A DNA stretch of 64,000 bases from Enterobacter cloacae (GTDB lineage Bacteria > Pseudomonadota > Gammaproteobacteria > Enterobacterales > Enterobacteriaceae). Position 1 is the stretch's first letter; each line of letters begins with the position of its first letter. Under the pieces are notes generated by a model that did no database searches, was not told the origin of the DNA, and worked only from the letters and a program-made list of their open reading frames with translations. The translations under genes and the position numbers were made by a program. The stretch covers positions 4,340,001-4,404,000 of the forward strand of contig NZ_CP056117.1 in NCBI RefSeq assembly GCF_013375935.1, in the 5' to 3' direction. Positions 1-28,371 of the stretch are shown here, piece after piece.

Positions 1-379
1 CTACAGCAGTGATATCACCACTAGTTCCTTTAGAGTTTATACCAATAATTGTTGATTGGCCTGAAGCTAAACTTCCTGAACCAATTGCCATTGAACCAGA
101 TGCGCTCGGATAAGCACAGATGCCAGCAGTAACATCAGCTGTAGTACACAGTAAACCACCGTCTGCAGTATAAGCTGCATAAGCGGGAGATATACCACCT
201 AACTCTGATAACATTAGAAATGCAGATGAAATAGCAGATAATCGAAAAAGCTTAAAAACCCCACAGGAAACCACAGCCCCACAAACGCTGTGACTTTTAC
301 CTTTTGAAACGGTGAGTTCACTGACAGGTATCAACATTCCCCTATCTGCATCCCATATCAATCTATATATTTTATTCAT
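1..379 (-). CDS. Trimeric autotransporter adhesin (YadA-like), 5' part only
   Basis: Partial gene, running off the left edge; about 126 codons are visible. The start is an ATG at 379 with AAGGGAAG just upstream. The product begins MNKIYRLIWDADRGM, the pattern of the extended signal peptide region (ESPR) typical of large type V autotransporters, followed by a hydrophobic signal segment ending near AYAAY at about residues 70-75. After it come glycine/serine-rich repeats (AIGSGSLASGQSTIIG) of the left-handed parallel beta-roll kind found in YadA/Hia heads. Such proteins form trimers on the outer membrane and bind host or abiotic surfaces. It lies 99 bp downstream of a LuxR-like regulator on the same strand. 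The membrane anchor lies outside the window, so full length and intactness are unknown. Highly AT-rich, unlike the core genes. Confidence 0.8.
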   Translation of the reverse strand, partial: MNKIYRLIWDADRGMLIPVSELTVSKGKSHSVCGAVVSCGVFKLFRLSAISSAFLMLSELGGISPAYAAYTADGGLLCTTADVTAGICAYPSASGSMAIGSGSLASGQSTIIGINSKGTSGDITAV

Positions 380-478
380 TTTCTTCCCTTAATTTTTCAT
401 AAAATAATATTTTTAAAGCTATAGTTGATGAAATGCCTCCCAATAGTTAGAGCAAATTAGAATGAAAAATTGTCCAGG

Positions 479-1075
479 TTATAAATCAACGCGCTGACGA
501 ACCATTGGCCTTATATGACATAAAGCTTTGACTATAGAGTATGCAGCTCCATCTCCAGACACTCTAAATTTCTGATAAGCAGAGCGCTTATAATAACTTA
601 CTCTCTTTCGCTCAATATCCTTCTGTAAATAGCTAAATCGTTTAAAAGTGAGTCCAAAATAGTTAAAAATAACCATCTCCTCTTTTTTCGACAAAGATGC
701 TTCAGTCCTGGATAAAATAGCAGGAGTTTTGATAAAAAGTCTGTTCAGCCGATCCAGAGAAATATATCGATCGATAACCAAAGAATCTTTGTAAAAAAGA
801 ACCATGTCGTTTTTACTAAGGGTTCGAATAGAGTAGATTACATTGGTGTTATCTAAGCAAGATATTTCCTTAATGATATTTAAATCATCCACAGCTAAAA
901 GAACAACATCATCCATAGTCCTGGCTGACGTAAGGAAAATATCTATTAACCCACCACGAGTCAGATCGTACAGGTAATAACATGTAACATTCAAATATCG
1001 TTTACCATTAAATAGAGACTGTAAACCTCTAATATAATAGTAATCGTCAGATATGATTTTAACATTCTTTCGCAT
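479..1075 (-). CDS. LuxR-type HTH regulator, degenerate
   Basis: 198-residue protein. I chose the ATG at 1075 (MRKNVKII) because AAGGGTG lies 7 nt upstream; a longer reading from 1102 has no ribosome site. The C-terminal third (LSKKEEMVIFNYFG, then VSYYKRSAYQKFRV) aligns by eye with the LuxR/FixJ helix-turn-helix, but the middle of the motif is poorly conserved. The N-terminal half has no recognisable phosphoacceptor receiver, so it resembles the YjjQ/BglJ kind of orphan LuxR-like regulator often found with fimbriae and adhesins. Only 10 bp separate it from the upstream EAL gene, and the adhesin starts 99 bp downstream, suggesting one transcription unit and a role in adhesin control. Direct targets are not visible. 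AT-rich, probably horizontally acquired. Confidence 0.65.
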   Translation of the reverse strand: MRKNVKIISDDYYYIRGLQSLFNGKRYLNVTCYYLYDLTRGGLIDIFLTSARTMDDVVLLAVDDLNIIKEISCLDNTNVIYSIRTLSKNDMVLFYKDSLVIDRYISLDRLNRLFIKTPAILSRTEASLSKKEEMVIFNYFGLTFKRFSYLQKDIERKRVSYYKRSAYQKFRVSGDGAAYSIVKALCHIRPMVRQRVDL

Positions 1076-1085
1076 AGACGCACCC

Positions 1086-1892
1086 TTATCCCTGGCCTCC
1101 AAATTTACTTAACAAAATGCAAAACTCTTTAACCGGAACTGGCTTTGAGTAATAAAAACCTTGCATTAAAGAAATGCCACACTCTTCAAGTGCATGTTGC
1201 TGGTTAGAATTTTCGACTCCTTCAGCAATAACTTTTACATCACAAAAACTCGATAGACTTACTATACTGTTAACTAGTTTCTTGTGTATTAATTCGTTTT
1301 TTTCAGTGATACGAGTTACAGAACGATCTAGTTTCAGCATCGCAACGTTAGTGATTCCAAAGTATCGCATTGCTGCGGAGTTTATCCCTGCATCATCAAT
1401 AGCAATTTTTACACCAATTGAATCATAAAAAGCGATTGATTCGATTAACCCTTCCGTTAAATCCATAACATTTCTTTCGACGATCTCAAGCAACACTTCA
1501 ACATTTGAAGGGAAGCAATGTTTAAATCTGACGATCTCTTTCTTCATCGCTTCTGACATAATCTGTGATGCAGTTATGTTCAATGTGAAAATAAACCCTT
1601 GCGGTATATTTCCTATAGCATTATATCGACTCAGTTGCTCAACTGTTTTAAGTAACAATTGCCTGGCGTAGAAATCTGCTCGACCCGGAGCTTCGAGTTC
1701 TTCTATTTGAAATTGATTTAGGATGTAACCTTTATTTGTCTCAACCCGACAAAGAATTTCTACGCCTGCAAGCGTGCCATCTAAAACATTAACAATCGGT
1801 TGCAAGAAGGGAGTTACATCCATTATAGATGCTGAGTTATAAACAGCATTGAACTCCATTCGAGACTTCCCACTATTGTTCGTTATCAGCAT
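1086..1892 (-). CDS. EAL-domain protein (putative c-di-GMP phosphodiesterase)
   Basis: 268 residues, essentially a stand-alone EAL domain with no membrane segment or receiver domain. The ATG at 1892 is preferred to a GTG at 1913 because AAGGG lies 8 nt before it. Motifs seen in order: EIL in place of EAL, LNIT (metal-binding Asn), LEIVE (Glu), DDAG in place of DDFG, LKLDR (Lys), AEGVEN (Glu) and QGFYYSKP (Gln). All residues normally needed for two-metal hydrolysis of c-di-GMP to pGpG therefore appear present, though the first motif and the DDFG loop are altered, so activity is plausible but not certain. Small soluble EAL proteins near adhesins (for example YdiV-like proteins) can also act as non-enzymatic protein binders. 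It is the first gene of the leftward set EAL, LuxR-like, adhesin. Confidence 0.8.
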   Translation of the reverse strand: MLITNNSGKSRMEFNAVYNSASIMDVTPFLQPIVNVLDGTLAGVEILCRVETNKGYILNQFQIEELEAPGRADFYARQLLLKTVEQLSRYNAIGNIPQGFIFTLNITASQIMSEAMKKEIVRFKHCFPSNVEVLLEIVERNVMDLTEGLIESIAFYDSIGVKIAIDDAGINSAAMRYFGITNVAMLKLDRSVTRITEKNELIHKKLVNSIVSLSSFCDVKVIAEGVENSNQQHALEECGISLMQGFYYSKPVPVKEFCILLSKFGGQG

Positions 1893-2330
1893 CGTACGTT
1901 CCCTTCTGGCCACCAGGTTGTGTTGCCCTGAACATGTATGTGTATGTTGTCAACGCCTGCGTTGATTGATCTAAACCAATGGTTACTTGCTGTAACACAT
2001 TTTACATCACCCCTCCCCTTTCAGAATATTATATTAAACAAAAGCAAAAATACGGGATTAACATCTAGTGATATAAAAAAACAAAGACATTTAAACCATG
2101 AATATATAAAATACATAAAAGTATAAGATTATAATTTTACGAAACATCTCTATATTAATAAAAAAAGACTCACAAATTCCCCAAAAATATAAAAAATAAT
2201 CAACAATTATCATCTTTGTTTATTTAACTTAGTGACATAGATTATTCTTATGATAAAGTAGCACTACTAAACAGGCGGGCAATAAATACACAAACTGTAG
2301 GCACAACAACTATATATAGGTCAGAAGGTT
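1893..2330 (+). other. AT-rich divergent intergenic region
   Basis: 438 bp separate the leftward EAL gene from the rightward MarT-like gene and must carry both promoters. The stretch 2040-2300 is very AT-rich, with A/T runs typical of H-NS-bound horizontally acquired DNA. A 62-codon open frame at 1938-2126 has no ribosome site and no recognisable motif, so I do not call it. No clear operator palindrome was found. Confidence 0.5.
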
Positions 2331-3182
2331 ATGTTATATATTTTTAATGATAAGGTTGTTTATGATGATACTCAGTGTTCTTTAACCAACATTGATACTA
2401 ATGATACAATACTGCTCCCGGCTACAGCCTCGCGGTTGTTATCACTATTCATTAAATATCAAGGAACTACGTTAACTCGCACCGAAATTTTAAACAGTGT
2501 CTGGGATGAATACGGATATAAGGCCTCGAACAATACTCTTTCACAATACATATCCCTTATCCGTAAAAACTTTCAACTTCTTGGAGACAATACTGAATTT
2601 CTGATAACTATACCGCGGACTGGATTTGTGCTGACAACGAAAGTCGAAGTCAGGCTAGTTGAAAGCTTAACTGATGCGTCTTCTTTTGTGTCTACATTGG
2701 ATAACCCTTTGACACCTCTTGAACATTCGGAGTCGTTAGCTTCTTTCCATACCGAACATACCGATAATTCATTAATTATGACAAAAGATAATCTCAGTTC
2801 TTTATTGAAAGAAAATGATATTAAATACTTTCATTATATTAATGTGCTTTCATTCATCATACTTTGCTCTGTCCTGCTTTTATTTTACTTATATAGAGGG
2901 GAGATTAAAACTACGAAACTTTATCTGGCCGGAAAAATTGACTCCTGCTCAGTTTACACGCTTTATAAAAGCTCGAAGGATTTAATCGGTTCTAAATTAG
3001 TCACCATTGAACATATTGCTAAAGATAAATTACCATGCGTCGCTAATAACTTCTATATCTCACAACTTGAAGACAGTCTGCTTTATGATAAAACAGGTCG
3101 GTTATTTATTAGCCGATGTGGTTATCAGGATAATATATCTAAAGTTATCTCTACCTGTAAGAGCCTTTTTACTCATGAATAA
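2331..3182 (+). CDS. Membrane-anchored winged-helix regulator (ToxR/CadC/MarT-like)
   Basis: 283 residues; ATG at 2331 with AGAAGG just upstream. Residues 1 to about 108 form an OmpR/PhoB-type winged helix (TLTRTEILNSVW, NNTLSQYISLIRKNF, ITIPRTGFVL), followed by a polar linker of about 60 residues, one transmembrane helix at about 168-188 (VLSFIILCSVLLLFYLY) and a periplasmic tail of about 95 residues with four cysteines that could form disulfides. This is the ToxR architecture: DNA binding in the cytoplasm, sensing in the periplasm. The next gene overlaps it by 8 bp and looks like FidL, so the closest analogue is the Salmonella MarT-FidL pair, where MarT activates the adhesin MisL. By inference it controls the divergent EAL/LuxR/adhesin genes. 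Confidence 0.75.
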   Translation: MLYIFNDKVVYDDTQCSLTNIDTNDTILLPATASRLLSLFIKYQGTTLTRTEILNSVWDEYGYKASNNTLSQYISLIRKNFQLLGDNTEFLITIPRTGFVLTTKVEVRLVESLTDASSFVSTLDNPLTPLEHSESLASFHTEHTDNSLIMTKDNLSSLLKENDIKYFHYINVLSFIILCSVLLLFYLYRGEIKTTKLYLAGKIDSCSVYTLYKSSKDLIGSKLVTIEHIAKDKLPCVANNFYISQLEDSLLYDKTGRLFISRCGYQDNISKVISTCKSLFTHE

Positions 3183-3666
3183 AAAATATAAAATCTTGAC
3201 GTGTTTTATTTTTATCACTCTTATAATAATCCTTACCGTTATTACCTTATGCTTTATCTCGAATAGTAATAATGTAAATTGTACTGCCGCCGTTGAAATG
3301 AACTCTCCAGGGGATCATGAATATACTTTTAATGGTACAATCAGCGTTAAGATCCGCCCAGGAACAGGCATGATCAGCATCTTTGGAACATCTGTATCAG
3401 CCAGGCAACCCGTTCCAATTAATAAACATCTTGTCAATCGCGACATAACCTTTAAGGTGCTTGGCAGAAACAAGAGTGATTTTTATTTATCTGATATATT
3501 AGTTTCTAAACACCCTGATGATAATATGACCCAAAATGAATCAGCAGGGTTATTGTTCGATCTGTTTGATTTTGAAAACAAAAGAATTACGATTCGAAAA
3601 TATACAAACTCATTTATTATTGGGGATTTACCACTACCCTCCTTCATTTGCATTAAAAAGAAATAA
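3175..3666 (+). CDS. FidL-like small membrane protein
   Basis: 163 residues. The open frame extends upstream to 3007, but the ATG at 3175 (MNKKYKIL) is the sensible start: it overlaps the end of the regulator gene by 8 bp and puts a hydrophobic helix at about residues 7-28, which would anchor the protein in the inner membrane with the rest in the periplasm. The periplasmic part has no enzyme motif that I recognise. The size, the topology and the position directly after a MarT/ToxR-like gene match FidL-like proteins, which by analogy with ToxS/TcpH may stabilise or modulate the partner regulator. The function of FidL itself is poorly known. AT-rich like its neighbours. Confidence 0.65.
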   Translation: MNKKYKILTCFIFITLIIILTVITLCFISNSNNVNCTAAVEMNSPGDHEYTFNGTISVKIRPGTGMISIFGTSVSARQPVPINKHLVNRDITFKVLGRNKSDFYLSDILVSKHPDDNMTQNESAGLLFDLFDFENKRITIRKYTNSFIIGDLPLPSFICIKKK

Positions 3667-4054
3667 AACACATTAAGCAATAATTATTGAATAATTTTGA
3701 TTTGCGTGGATTAAAAAAGTATATGATGGGCTTTATCTTCGCCGCTACTTTCAGATTCTGGGAAAGCAGGTTATGCCTGTTAGACTCTTTCCAGTCTATT
3801 CCTTCATGCGCAGCTGGATTATTGCCAGCCCGTGGTTGCACTTACGGATTACCTGGAGAAGTATGAAGGGAACATCAGCGGGCTGCAGCCCTGGTGAATT
3901 ACAAAACCAATATCAGCGCGCTGTCGTAGCGGCTATGAAAATTGCAGGTATTTCATTTACTGGAGTTTTCTGTTTGAACAAAAATGATGAGTACCATAAC
4001 TTCTTAAGGCCTTCCCCCCCGGCAAGCGACGCGCCGCCGGGGGGGGAAGGAAGG
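3667..4054 (+). other. Composition boundary with possible gene remnant
   Basis: 388 bp between the AT-rich adhesin block and the GC-rich core. Around 3800-3897 one frame reads ALTDYLEKYEGNISGLQPW before a TGA, with a stop about 36 codons upstream; it looks like the 3' end of a decayed gene, but I do not recognise it. The base composition changes within this interval, which suggests that one end of the acquired block lies here. Confidence 0.35.
4010..4050. terminator. Very GC-rich hairpin downstream of the aldo/keto reductase
   Basis: CCTT plus seven C and GGC pairs with GCC, eight G and AAGG across a loop of about 12 nt. The stem is nearly perfect, with a one-base bulge. It begins 4 bp past the leftward reductase gene and probably ends that transcript, although there is no clear U tract. 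Confidence 0.5.
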
Positions 4055-5095
4055 TTACTGCTGCGCGAGCTGGCTGCGGCGATGCTCGCCCTGCCGCTCC
4101 AGCATCCAGCCCGGATATTCGCGCGGCAGCGCGCTGACGGCATCAAGCTCTCTAAGCTCGTCTTCGCTCAGGCGGATCCCGGTGGCGGCAATGTTGTCCT
4201 CCAGCTGCTCGACGCGCTTCGCGCCGATAATCACGCTGGTCACCGCTTTTTGATGCAGCAGCCACGCCAGCGCGATTTGCGCCACGGAAACGCCCTTACG
4301 CTCGGCAATGACGCGCATCACGTCCACGCAGTCGAAGGCGCGATCTTTATTCACCGGCGGGAAGTCAAACTCCAGTCGGCGGCCTCCGGTTTCGCTCTGC
4401 CCGTCACGACCGTATTTCCCGCTCAGCAGGCCGCCCGCCAGCGGGCTCCAGACCATCAGCCCGACGCCTTCGCTCTGCATCATCGGCACCAGCTCGCGCT
4501 CCAGGTCGCGTCCGGCGATGGTGTAATACGCCTGGAGTGAGGCGAAACGGGACAGGCCCAGGCGTTCGGAAATGCCCAGCGCTTTGGCAATCTGCCAGGC
4601 CGCCCAGTTAGAGACACCGATATAGCGAACGTGGCCGTGCTGCACCAGGTTATCCAGGGCGTGGAGGGTCTCTTCGATGGGGGTTGCCGGATCGAAGCCG
4701 TGTAGCTGATAGAGATCGATATGATCCAGCTGCAGGCGGCGCAGGCTCTCCTTCACGCTGCCGATAATGTGATAGCGCGAGCCACCGCGTGAGTTCACTC
4801 CCGCGGTACCCGTTTCGCCGAACACCTTGGTGGCGACCACCACGTTTTCGCGCGGGACGTTCAGGTTTTTCAGCGCCTGACCGAGGATCTCCTCCGAGCG
4901 TCCTTCCGAATAGACGTCGGCTGTGTCGATAAAGTTGATGCCGGCGTCCAGCGCGCGGCCCACCAGCTGCTCGGCGTCGTTTTGCCTGAGCTGGCCAATC
5001 TTGCCCCACATGCCGCCCTCGCCGCCGAAGGTCATGGTGCCGAGGCAGAGTTCTGAAACAAACAGTCCGGTATTGCCCAGTTTTTGATAACGCAT
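4055..5095 (-). CDS. Aldo/keto reductase
   Basis: 346 residues. ATG at 5095 (MRYQKLGNTGLFVSELCLG) preceded by GAGGAAAG; the longer open frame to 5194 lacks a start signal. NADPH-dependent reductase of the AKR superfamily with a TIM-barrel fold. The catalytic tetrad is visible: Asp in FIDTADVY, Tyr in the same motif, Lys in VVATKVF and His in LYQLHGFD. The C-terminal IIGAKRVEQLEDN segment is typical of the NADPH-binding region. It reduces aldehydes or ketones; the substrate cannot be told from sequence. It lies about 100 bp downstream of the efflux operon on the same strand and may be co-transcribed or simply adjacent. E. coli K-12 has no gene of this kind next to ybiR. Confidence 0.88.
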   Translation of the reverse strand: MRYQKLGNTGLFVSELCLGTMTFGGEGGMWGKIGQLRQNDAEQLVGRALDAGINFIDTADVYSEGRSEEILGQALKNLNVPRENVVVATKVFGETGTAGVNSRGGSRYHIIGSVKESLRRLQLDHIDLYQLHGFDPATPIEETLHALDNLVQHGHVRYIGVSNWAAWQIAKALGISERLGLSRFASLQAYYTIAGRDLERELVPMMQSEGVGLMVWSPLAGGLLSGKYGRDGQSETGGRRLEFDFPPVNKDRAFDCVDVMRVIAERKGVSVAQIALAWLLHQKAVTSVIIGAKRVEQLEDNIAATGIRLSEDELRELDAVSALPREYPGWMLERQGEHRRSQLAQQ

Positions 5096-25827: not shown

Positions 25828-28371
25828 ATGCGCTGGGAATATAGCACCGAACCACCCAAACAGCACGGACGCTCAATGCTAATTGCGCTGGGCTGTACCC
25901 TGCTGGGCGTTTGCGTGCAAAAAGTTCTGGCCGATGATTATTTCAACCCGGCGCTGCTGGATATTGACAACCCTGGACAGGGAAAAACCGACCTCAGTAT
26001 TTACGAGATCGGCCCCGGTCAGGCTCCCGGTAAATATCACGTCGACGTCTACGTCAATAATAATAAAGTCGCCAGTAAAGAGATTGAGTTCACGCTAAAG
26101 AAAGACGCCAGCGGAAAATCGACGCTGCAGCCGTGCCTGAACGCGGCCCAGTTAAAAAGCTTCGGCATTAAAATTGATAAATTCGTGCAGGATGATAAGG
26201 CGCAGTGCATTGACCTGAGCGTTATCCCCTCCGCCAGCGCCACGTTTCACGTTAACCCTCAGCAGCTGCTGTTAAGCATCCCGCAGACCGCTATTACCCG
26301 TGTGCCGCGCGACTATGTCGACCCGCAGGAGTATGACGAGGGGATCAACGCCCTGCTGCTGAACTACAGCTTTACCGCCGGGGACAACCGCGGCAAGGGC
26401 GAGAACGGCACAGACCAGCGCAGCGAGTTTCTTAACCTGCGTCCCGGTCTTAACCTCGGGGCGTGGCGTTTGCGAAACTACTCCACCTGGAGCAAAACCA
26501 GCGGAGACGGTGACGCGGAGAGCCAGTTTTCTTCCGTGTACACCTACGTCCAGCGGGATATTATTTCCCTTGGCAGCAGCGTTAAATTCGGGCAAAGCTC
26601 GTCGCCTTCGGACGTGTTTGACAGCATTTCATTCACCGGGGCGCAGATCGCGTCGGACGACGATATGCTGCCGGACAGCATGAAAGGTTTTGCCCCCGTC
26701 ATCCGCGGAACGGCACACAGCAACGCCCAGGTTATCGTCCGCCAGAACGGCTACGTCATCTATCAAAACTACGTTGCGCCGGGCCCGTTTGAAATAAACG
26801 ACCTCTACCCCACCGGCGGTAGCGGGGACTTAAACGTCACCGTGAAAGAGACCGACGGCAGCGAACAGCATTTTGTGGTGCCCTACGCTTCGGTGCCGGT
26901 ATTGCAGCGTGAGGGCCGCTTTAAGTACAGCCTCACCGCAGGACGCTACCGCAGCTACGACAGCGACGTCGAAAAAACGCCTTTCATGCAGGGTACGGCA
27001 ATCTACGGGTTGCCTTACGGCTTTACTGCCTACGGCGGCGTGCAGGCCAGCCAGTATTACGATGCCCTTGCGCTGGGAGTCGGTAAGAATATCGGCGATC
27101 TCGGCGCGTTTTCGGTGGATGTCACCGGTGCCAAATCAGAGATGCAGGACAAGGCGCCGACCCACGGGCGCTCCTGGCGCATCCGCTACAGCAAAGATTT
27201 CGCCACCACCGGCACCCATTTTTCCATTGCCGGCTACCGCTACAACAGCAAAGGGTTTTATACGCTACAGGACACCCTGGATTCGCATACCCGCAATGAC
27301 GACCGGGAAATGCCGGACACCCGACGCAGCCGGGAAGAGGCCACCGTCGATCAGTCCCTGGGCGGAAGGTTTGGATCCCTGACCCTGAGCCTGGTGAAGG
27401 AGAACTACTGGAATTCCAGCGAAAGCATGACGTCAGTGAACGTCGGCTATAACAACTCCTGGCACGGGGTGAGCTACGGCCTGAACTACGGACTCAATAA
27501 AAACACCCGTGACGGCAGCGACGACAATAACGAGAAAACCAGCGAGCAGACCATCGCCTTTAACGTCTCCGTGCCGCTCGATCGCTGGCTTCGCAACACC
27601 TGGGTCAACTACAACCTGAACAGCACGAAACACGACTCCACCCAAAGCGTGGGCCTGAACGGCACCGCGCTCGCCGGCGATAACCTCAGCTGGGGCGTCC
27701 AGCAGAGCCACGGTCAGAGCAGCGGCGACAGCACCAGCCTGAACGCCGATTACAAAGGCACCTACGGGGAGGTCAGCGCCGGATATTCACAGGATAGCCA
27801 GCAGCAGCAGCTTAACGTCGGCCTTCAGGGCAGCATGGTCGCTCATGCGCATGGCGTCACGCTGGGCCAGCCGATGGGCGAGACGGCCGCGCTGGTCGAA
27901 GCGCCGGGCGCAGACGACACGAACATTACCAATCAGACCGGCGTGAGCACCGATTTCCGCGGCTATGCCATCGTGCCGTACGTGTCGCCATACCGCCATA
28001 ACACCCTTGCGCTCAACACCGAAACGCTGCCGGAAAAGGCGGACGTTGCTCAGGCCGCAAAAACCGTAACGCCGACGCGCGGGGCGATTGTTCGCGCGCA
28101 TTACGAAACGCACGTGGGCAGCCGGGTATTAATTACGCTGAAACGCGCGGACGGACGCGCGATCCCGTTCGGCGCAACGGCATCGCAGCCCCATCAGGAG
28201 GGCGAATTTATCGTGGGCGATGGCGGGCAGGTTTATATGACCGGCATGCAGAAAAAAGGCAGGGTTGAGGTCAGCTGGGGGAAAACCGCCGACAGCCGCT
28301 GCTCCGCAACCTATCACCTTCCCGCAAAAGACGACGGGGCTGTTATTAACGTTACGGCGCGGTGCGTGTGA
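25828..28371 (+). CDS. Fimbrial outer-membrane usher (FimD/PapC family)
   Basis: 847 residues, full family length. A predicted signal region with a longer polar start (ATG at 25828), then the periplasmic N-terminal domain (DDYFNPALLDIDN, about residues 36-175), the 24-stranded barrel with a plug (VRQNGYVIYQNYVAPGPFEINDLYPTG at about 309-335), and C-terminal domains with a Cys pair (SRCSATYHLP and TARCV). It receives chaperone-subunit complexes and threads the pilus across the outer membrane. Its start is 27 bp after the end of the frameshifted chaperone. Appears intact. Confidence 0.94.
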   Translation: MRWEYSTEPPKQHGRSMLIALGCTLLGVCVQKVLADDYFNPALLDIDNPGQGKTDLSIYEIGPGQAPGKYHVDVYVNNNKVASKEIEFTLKKDASGKSTLQPCLNAAQLKSFGIKIDKFVQDDKAQCIDLSVIPSASATFHVNPQQLLLSIPQTAITRVPRDYVDPQEYDEGINALLLNYSFTAGDNRGKGENGTDQRSEFLNLRPGLNLGAWRLRNYSTWSKTSGDGDAESQFSSVYTYVQRDIISLGSSVKFGQSSSPSDVFDSISFTGAQIASDDDMLPDSMKGFAPVIRGTAHSNAQVIVRQNGYVIYQNYVAPGPFEINDLYPTGGSGDLNVTVKETDGSEQHFVVPYASVPVLQREGRFKYSLTAGRYRSYDSDVEKTPFMQGTAIYGLPYGFTAYGGVQASQYYDALALGVGKNIGDLGAFSVDVTGAKSEMQDKAPTHGRSWRIRYSKDFATTGTHFSIAGYRYNSKGFYTLQDTLDSHTRNDDREMPDTRRSREEATVDQSLGGRFGSLTLSLVKENYWNSSESMTSVNVGYNNSWHGVSYGLNYGLNKNTRDGSDDNNEKTSEQTIAFNVSVPLDRWLRNTWVNYNLNSTKHDSTQSVGLNGTALAGDNLSWGVQQSHGQSSGDSTSLNADYKGTYGEVSAGYSQDSQQQQLNVGLQGSMVAHAHGVTLGQPMGETAALVEAPGADDTNITNQTGVSTDFRGYAIVPYVSPYRHNTLALNTETLPEKADVAQAAKTVTPTRGAIVRAHYETHVGSRVLITLKRADGRAIPFGATASQPHQEGEFIVGDGGQVYMTGMQKKGRVEVSWGKTADSRCSATYHLPAKDDGAVINVTARCV

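Follow-up and report, generated by a model that had tools for sequence, protein, structure and literature searches.

Why do a trimeric autotransporter adhesin, a LuxR-like regulator, a small EAL-domain protein and two membrane proteins resembling MarT and FidL lie side by side in an Enterobacter cloacae chromosome, and do they form one system? We address this question for a stretch of 64,000 bp (RefSeq assembly GCF_013375935.1, contig NZ_CP056117.1; G000:C1:4340001-4404000), hereafter the window, which belongs to the chromosome of a 4.9-Mb genome (G000, hereafter the own genome). The genes occupy the left end of the window and were followed beyond its edge in an overlapping stretch, L002 (G000:C1:4325001-4344500; window coordinate = L002 coordinate minus 15000). 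Comparison samples comprised 61 genomes of the genus and 149 of the family, the own genome being included in each. On balance we favour, with some confidence, an adhesin island in which a periplasmic sensor pair and a cyclic di-GMP (c-di-GMP) layer, formed by the EAL and LuxR-like proteins, would control a fibre anchored by a TpgA-like lipoprotein.

Two divergent gene sets at the end of an acquired island

An initial annotation had proposed five genes at this place, and all five were recovered at or very near the positions it gave, from open reading frames (ORFs) and the Pfam models ESPR, EAL and Trans_reg_C (Table 1). It had also described a leftward set facing a rightward pair; the two sets are as described, but they stand back to back, diverging from a region of 417 bp. 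Across the window and L002 the order on the leftward strand is EAL, LuxR-like, trimeric autotransporter, TpgA-like lipoprotein and a protein of 286 amino acids (aa), the last two genes of this presumed operon falling left of the window edge. On this strand the genes for the EAL protein, the LuxR-like protein and the adhesin follow closely upon one another, with spacers of 10 bp and 99 bp, and all five ORFs of the window are open. An alternative TTG start at 1102 would give a LuxR-like protein of 207 aa.

Table 1. Features at the left end of the window (window coordinates)
Feature	Position	Strand	Evidence
Trimeric autotransporter adhesin, N-terminal 126 aa in window	2-379	-	Pfam ESPR, 1.2e-13; gene runs leftward to L002:5903
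Spacer between LuxR-like and adhesin genes, 99 bp	380-478		Sequence; possible separate adhesin promoter region
Divergent LuxR-like regulator, 198 aa (ATG start)	479-1075	-	ORF; profile-profile comparison, Prob 89, E 2.3e-6
Stand-alone EAL-domain protein, 275 aa	1086-1913	-	Pfam EAL (PF00563), 2.6e-35; alignments
Divergent region between EAL and MarT-like genes, 417 bp, 29% GC	1914-2330		Sequence; putative regulatory role
MarT/ToxR-like membrane regulator, 283 aa	2331-3182	+	Pfam Trans_reg_C (PF00486), 1.2e-11
FidL-like protein, 163 aa	3175-3666	+	Sequence; alignment of 18
Right island boundary	4016/4017		BLASTN of uninterrupted G144 and G166 loci against L002

When the uninterrupted sequences of G144 and G166 are compared with L002, matches stop at L002:1370 and restart at L002:19017, which leaves about 17.6 kb extra in the own genome. 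The left boundary of this island (L002:1370/1371) is outside the window, and window positions 1-4016 are the island's right end. Both flanks of the insertion site lie on one contig in 41 of the 61 genus genomes, own included; the other 20, whose flanks are partial, missing or on separate contigs, were left out of the count. The flanks are at most 111 bp apart in 34 of the 40 other scored genomes, compared with 17.7 kb in the own genome, and six carry longer inserts (G196, 16.6 kb; G161, 16.2 kb; G155, 8.8 kb; G182, 3.6 kb; G204, 1.4 kb; G200, 0.27 kb). The adhesin repeats have a guanine-cytosine (GC) content of 0.6-0.7, against about 0.32-0.43 in those parts of the island that lie outside the adhesin gene. 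On the basis of the near-empty site in relatives and the low GC content outside the adhesin repeats, the island is horizontally acquired. No tRNA gene was found at the insertion site in the stretches scanned. Larger inserts occupy the same site in several relatives, and the site is therefore an insertion hotspot.

Together, the inserts of G196, G161, G155 and G182 (L099-L102) hold glycoside hydrolase genes (GH2/GH32), a siderophore-like set (ABC exporter, MacB and TonB-receptor genes), a fimbrial set and a PAAR/Tle1-like gene; the Tle1-like gene looks like an effector of a type VI secretion system (T6SS). The G155 insert carries the fimbrial set plus a LuxR-like gene. Inside the island of the own genome, near its left end, L002:2403-3380 encodes a KfrA_N-domain protein (a plasmid-type DNA-binding domain, 4.2e-15).

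A trimeric adhesin with a TpgA-like partner

The ESPR-containing trimeric autotransporter of the initial annotation, of which only 126 aa lie in the window, is confirmed by the complete gene. The ORF (L002:5903-15379) is open throughout its 3,158 aa and encodes ESPR, 7 YadA_head stretches, 26 YadA_stalk stretches and YadA_anchor (3.4e-19), all four Pfam families scoring above cut-off; the adhesin is a trimeric autotransporter of type Vc. MisL, with which the annotation contrasted it, is a type Va autotransporter, and the difference in class holds by Pfam.

The adjoining gene encodes a lipoprotein of 264 aa with BamE (PF04355, 2.1e-13) and OmpA (PF00691, 1.1e-17) domains, and the N-terminal half of the protein matches the TpgA-N structure 9vnj (9vnj_B, 1.1e-11). 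It reaches 142.4 of the 350 bits of the NCBIfam TpgA equivalog cut-off, and for this reason it is called TpgA-like. The 286-aa protein has a signal-like N-terminus and matches no family above cut-off.

A membrane regulator pair of the MarT/FidL type

Passages of Kinch et al. 2022 (PMC9214523) describe co-component systems as a membrane winged helix-turn-helix (wHTH) regulator with a lipocalin-like partner encoded by an adjacent, often overlapping gene; they also describe a disulfide-containing FidL/YqeJ branch, in which the bond joins N- and C-terminal strands, and state that MarT/FidL activates MisL. The MarT-like protein of the window has an N-terminal winged helix and then, judged by eye, one probable transmembrane helix at about 168-188 and a presumed periplasmic domain. 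For a profile of 20 MarT-like relatives, the best match in the Protein Data Bank is the ToxR DNA-binding domain (3.6e-22); periplasmic C236, C263 and C276 are kept in all 20 aligned sequences, and C206 in at least 90% of them. The MarT-like stop and the FidL-like start overlap by 8 bp (3175-3182), and C36, R89 and C159 are invariant in 18/18 FidL-like sequences (the window's and 17 encoded beside MarT-like genes).

The FidL-like protein has only sub-threshold matches in Pfam and NCBIfam, none above cut-off. It reads as a membrane-anchored partner, with an N-terminal transmembrane helix and a periplasmic domain that contains C36 and C159. Its single-sequence AlphaFold2 model has a mean predicted local distance difference test score (pLDDT) of 44.9, with an N-terminal helix (3-32) as its confident part, and is unusable for the fold. 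Because the pair combines a winged helix, an overlapping partner gene and, in keeping with the FidL/YqeJ branch, invariant cysteines, the MarT/FidL naming is sound at the family level; in these features the two proteins appear to fit the VtrA/VtrC-type (MarT/FidL-branch) regulators. The MarT/FidL parallel drawn in the initial annotation is thus real for protein family and gene architecture, the adjacent adhesin included.

The EAL/MarT/FidL unit recurs beside several adhesin classes

A census of the family was built from 39 loci of the MarT hit list (L037-L055, L057-L076), with 16-18 kb fetched at each. The loci are mostly high-ranked, not strictly in order, and seven come from the own genome (4) or from one same-genus genome (3); L056 (chosen for its LuxR-like match), L035 and the window were left out. 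A FidL gene is adjacent at 28 of the 39 loci, an usher is present at 21, a LuxR-like gene at 15, an EAL gene at 10 (all with adjacent FidL) and a classical autotransporter at 3; an usher or classical autotransporter lies in the fetched stretch at 23. The EAL count compares with 3.2 expected from the EAL density of the own genome (binomial P 0.0009) and the usher count with 2.4 expected (20 usher matches taken as 17 genes), under a chance model that ignores general clustering of island genes and the relatedness of the genomes. A wider contig collection returned 42 loci, of which 19 from Enterobacterales (L106-L124) were kept and 23, from other phyla or with weak matches, were dropped. Among these 19, FidL is adjacent at 16, with EAL at 7, usher at 4 and autotransporter at 4. 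There is some overlap between the two sets: one and the same EAL is found in L065 and L109, and L116 and L122 sit on a contig equal in length to that of L038.

Four adhesin classes are found beside MarT-like genes, namely fimbriae and classical, inverse and (in the window) trimeric autotransporters. Classical autotransporters accompany the pair in Citrobacter (L106, L115). An invasin-type inverse autotransporter accompanies it in L121, and similar giant ORFs (not Pfam-scanned) are present in L118 and in L119, the latter having no called FidL; no EAL gene was seen beside these inverse-autotransporter MarT-like loci. In the own genome, a second EAL/MarT/FidL cassette (L057, G000:C1:3675500-3693500) has a chaperone-usher fimbrial operon downstream of its EAL gene.

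The closest overall layout found is L070 (G061), where genes for a LuxR-like protein, an ESPR/AIDA-type autotransporter, a TibC-like glycosyltransferase and an EAL protein diverge from MarT and FidL, as the LuxR-like, ESPR-adhesin and EAL genes do in the window. L070 differs from the window in its type Va AIDA/Tib-type adhesin with a glycosyltransferase, in the position of the adhesin gene between EAL and LuxR-like genes, and in lacking a TpgA-like gene. The same genome holds L226 (G061:C9:762000-781500), with FidL and MarT followed by EAL, a 120-aa autotransporter remnant (weak, 2.4e-5) and a LuxR-like gene (2.4e-7), apparently a second, decayed copy of the layout.

One candidate for the same system was rejected. 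In E. coli L035 the LuxR-like gene precedes a chaperone-usher operon, the MarT/FidL-like pair starts 7.6 kb away from the LuxR-like gene, and the EAL protein, of 536 aa, falls outside the small-EAL clade described below. L035 (NZ_CP134663.1, a record labelled plasmid yet 4.9 Mb long) also carries a GGDEF gene; the locus is matched, in whole or at least partly, by 401 of 5,426 complete E. coli genomes, and its EAL gene is named pdeT in one record among the matches listed. A DNA search with window 380-3700 gave no match in E. coli genomes or plasmids. Further along the window, a fimbrial usher gene lies at 26431-28101 (Pfam usher model aligned to 2-548 of 549).

A clade of small EAL proteins and its LuxR-like neighbour

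EAL catalysis involves nine residues (E, N, E, E, D, D, K, E and Q), and all nine positions are kept in the window EAL when it is aligned with PdeL and relatives; PdeL (4kie) is also its nearest solved EAL by sequence (4e-22). A maximum likelihood tree was computed for 37 domains, made up of 19 from the MarT loci, the window and L035 and of 18 other EALs of the own genome; the second copy in L108, the L124 EAL and the own-genome L163 EAL were left out. Seven small stand-alone EALs, the window's among them, form a clade (support 100/99); all seven are MarT-linked, and none of the 18 non-cassette EALs of the own genome is inside it. Taken together, the MarT-linked EALs do not make up a single clade (7 changes along the tree vs 12.7 in shuffles).

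Because most rows of this tree came from MarT loci, we searched the 149 family and 61 genus genomes with a profile of the clade. The scores split cleanly, seven loci (two in G061, two in G000, one each in G011, G027 and G183) reaching at least 288 bits and all others at most 197. MarT and FidL are near all seven, within about 0.55 kb at six and at about 2 kb in G183. Within 1.5 kb on either side, both are present at six of the seven top loci vs 0/53 lower-scoring loci checked, which have one weak MarT-like ORF and one FidL-like ORF, never both.

The label 'LuxR-like' given in the initial annotation is upheld by profile comparison and not by any family model: the protein matches no Pfam or NCBIfam family and does not reach the GerE cut-off. 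The hhalign match of Table 1 spans 144 columns and joins alignments of only 2 and 3 sequences, the three being relatives from EAL/MarT loci, of which two were tested and both match GerE; this profile-profile comparison supports a probable relationship to GerE regulators. An iterated search with hidden Markov models over the ORFs of the fetched loci linked the protein to 18 others, although its successive rounds may have broadened the profile to take in LuxR-type helix-turn-helix (HTH) proteins generally; the three aligned relatives are among the closer of the 18. Single-sequence searches (query window 479-1054, seven residues short at the N-terminus) found no full-length relative in the 148 other family genomes, with one weak 65-residue match (G096), none in the 60 other genus genomes and none in the wider genome contig collection; the plasmid collection gave one relative at 27.7% identity. 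A single-sequence structure model was unusable (mean pLDDT 33.6).

At other MarT-linked loci the two functions are joined more closely. In G122 a 465-aa ORF (L066:9877-11274) fuses EAL (4e-12) and GerE (4e-8) beside MarT/FidL, and EAL and LuxR-like ORFs overlap in L058 and L063. These fused and overlapping genes hint at an ability of EAL and LuxR-like proteins to act jointly.

A proposed route from envelope signal to adhesin

The 'self-contained switch' whose parts 'jointly control' the adhesin, as the initial annotation had it, is too strong a description of this evidence. We infer every regulatory step of the model that follows, together with its ligand, co-transcription of the operon and enzymatic activity. 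The periplasmic domain of the FidL-like protein, held by a disulfide, and that of the MarT-like protein would form one sensor for an envelope cue, which we guess, from VtrC and the conserved cysteines, to be either a redox change or a ligand of the lipid or bile type. The signal-bound MarT-like protein would then bind the AT-rich divergent region from the membrane, relieve silencing and activate its own gene as well as the leftward set. A second, c-di-GMP-linked layer may come from the EAL protein and the LuxR-like regulator, which would act much as PdeL, STM0551 or MrkI/MrkJ do and gate transcription of the adhesin at the 99-bp spacer. The adhesin would be exported as a trimeric fibre whose anchor is reinforced by the peptidoglycan-bound TpgA-like lipoprotein.

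With a small EAL clade apparently accompanying co-component sensors, envelope sensing and c-di-GMP would be connected directly and in a way that can be tested, and the exchange of one adhesin for another next to these sensors hints at the genes they control.

Points against the model and competing explanations

Several observations weigh against this model, and a first group of them concerns how regularly the genes keep company. The initial annotation had made its proposal depend on the genes co-occurring in other genomes. The EAL and MarT/FidL core does recur, but the exact gene set was found in no other genome searched, and the full set is rare in the annotation's own sense because single-sequence searches gave the LuxR-like protein no full-length relatives in the family and genus samples. 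No EAL gene lies in the fetched stretch at 29 of the 39 family loci, and 21 of the 39 lack the combination of the pair with a detected adhesin, a count made with two adhesin profiles under which certain types, for instance the TcfC-type usher of L061, go undetected. Six of the seven top EAL loci were already in the query alignment, so that the unbiased part of the clade test rests on one locus (L226 on G061:C9). In the seven divergent regions no 8-mer is shared by at least five, while six 7-mers are, vs 1.8 in shuffles (maximum 10); promoter-like matches in window 1-4100 are at chance level (16 vs 16.1 in shuffles), as is a terminator scan. Lastly, two other members of the genus, G194 and G185, have gene sets for a trimeric adhesin, a TpgA-like protein and a 286-aa-type protein at a different chromosomal site (L088, L089). 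Upstream of the G194 set lie a lone winged-helix ORF of 164 aa and an ORF of 234 aa, and EAL, FidL and LuxR-like ORFs are absent from the approximately 20 kb fetched at either locus. The adhesin set can therefore occur without the control unit, and the island gives the impression of a control unit added to such a set.

A competing explanation is that independently acquired genes accumulated in the island, with MarT/FidL or EAL/LuxR acting elsewhere and the adhesin constitutive or under global regulators. Such accumulation would be in keeping with adhesin sets found without the control unit, with the lack of a shared promoter motif, with the varied cargo of the insertion site in relatives (fimbriae, glycoside hydrolases, the siderophore-like set, the T6SS effector-like gene) and with the 10 of 28 adjacent-FidL loci at which neither an usher nor a classical autotransporter was detected in the stretch fetched. 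It accounts less well for EAL, LuxR-like, autotransporter and MarT/FidL genes coming together at two sites of G061 (L070, L226), for the presence of the pair at all seven top EAL loci, and for the close packing of EAL, LuxR-like and adhesin genes on one strand. We consider this explanation unlikely.

A second group of observations concerns the state of the EAL and LuxR-like proteins. The canonical loop 6 of EAL domains is DDFGxGYS. The window EAL has DDAGINSA in place of the usual DDFGTGYS, and loop 6 varies across the clade; the activity of the window EAL may therefore be reduced, and we speak of an EAL-domain protein rather than of a proven phosphodiesterase because loop 6 is non-canonical. 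The EALs of L066, L058 and L063 sit on a different, distant branch of the tree, so the fused and overlapping genes speak only indirectly for the window EAL. Such features could mark a decaying remnant, in which the EAL is weakened, the HTH of the LuxR-like protein has drifted, and only MarT/FidL, or nothing, still regulates the adhesin. The LuxR-like HTH does lack the usual IA..L..S.KT core and is missed by Pfam, and two related cassettes seem to be damaged, that of Kluyvera L108 with fragmented ORFs and that of L226 with its short autotransporter ORF. Against decay, none of the five window ORFs is interrupted, the EAL retains its nine catalytic positions and the adhesin reads through all of its 3,158 aa, and we judge a remnant quite improbable.

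A wider proposal can be made from the two-layered control that we favour. MarT/FidL and a dedicated small-EAL clade might be a transferable controller plugged into fimbriae, classical and trimeric autotransporters, with the EAL and LuxR-like proteins acting as a split trigger enzyme of the PdeL type, so that adhesin output would depend on an envelope signal and on a particular c-di-GMP state together. We advance it tentatively and at a lower level of belief, because the fused EAL-LuxR protein of G122 lies on a different EAL branch.

Comparison with known systems

The EAL/LuxR-like, MarT/FidL and trimeric adhesin combination was not found in searches of open-licence papers, among which 'FidL' and 'EAL domain' occur together in only two, both on acidithiobacilli to judge by their titles. 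The terms 'EAL', 'LuxR' and 'fimbria' are unmentioned in the main text of the superfamily paper (PMC9214523), and stb, STM0341 and STM0344 in that of PMC11737180. The initial annotation knew of no description of this exact combination, which stands as far as this search goes, but the idea is less new than it implied, given what is published on adhesin control by EAL and LuxR-type proteins in mrkHIJ (PMC3161979), on the EAL gene stm0551 among fim regulators (PMC3487979) and on MarT/FidL activating MisL (PMC9214523). The layers are known singly, as MarT/FidL-MisL, MrkI/MrkJ and STM0551 in those same sources, and what is new is most likely their combination with a trimeric adhesin.

Four comparisons concern the second layer and the adhesin. 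PdeL (YahA) of E. coli combines LuxR-type and EAL domains in one polypeptide, whereas the window has two adjacent genes. FimY, FimZ and FimW are LuxR-type regulators. In Salmonella, stm0551 with fimY/fimZ/fimW resembles the window in having an EAL gene among adhesin regulators, the phosphodiesterase STM0551 repressing the adhesin; it differs in that the adhesin is of the chaperone-usher class and that the abstract names no co-component pair (PMC3487979). The mrkHIJ genes for type 3 fimbriae of Klebsiella likewise place a LuxR-type regulator and an EAL phosphodiesterase beside an adhesin; unlike the window they include the PilZ regulator MrkH and serve a fimbria rather than an autotransporter, and the corresponding passages mention no MarT/FidL pair (PMC3161979). 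AtaA/TpgA of Acinetobacter, as outlined in part of PMC13082670, shares with the window island a trimeric adhesin and a peptidoglycan-binding periplasmic anchor protein; unlike it, the island has a third gene, of 286 aa, and an anchor that scores below the NCBIfam TpgA cut-off.

For the first layer, the counterpart is MarT/FidL-MisL of Salmonella SPI-3, which, from the passages of PMC9214523, shares with the window a membrane wHTH regulator gene overlapping a FidL-like gene, an adjacent type V adhesin and two cysteines, one close to each end of the periplasmic domain of FidL, a likeness drawn at family level, with no Salmonella MarT or FidL sequence directly compared. Unlike SPI-3, the window has a trimeric (type Vc) adhesin in place of MisL, and EAL and LuxR-like genes are added.

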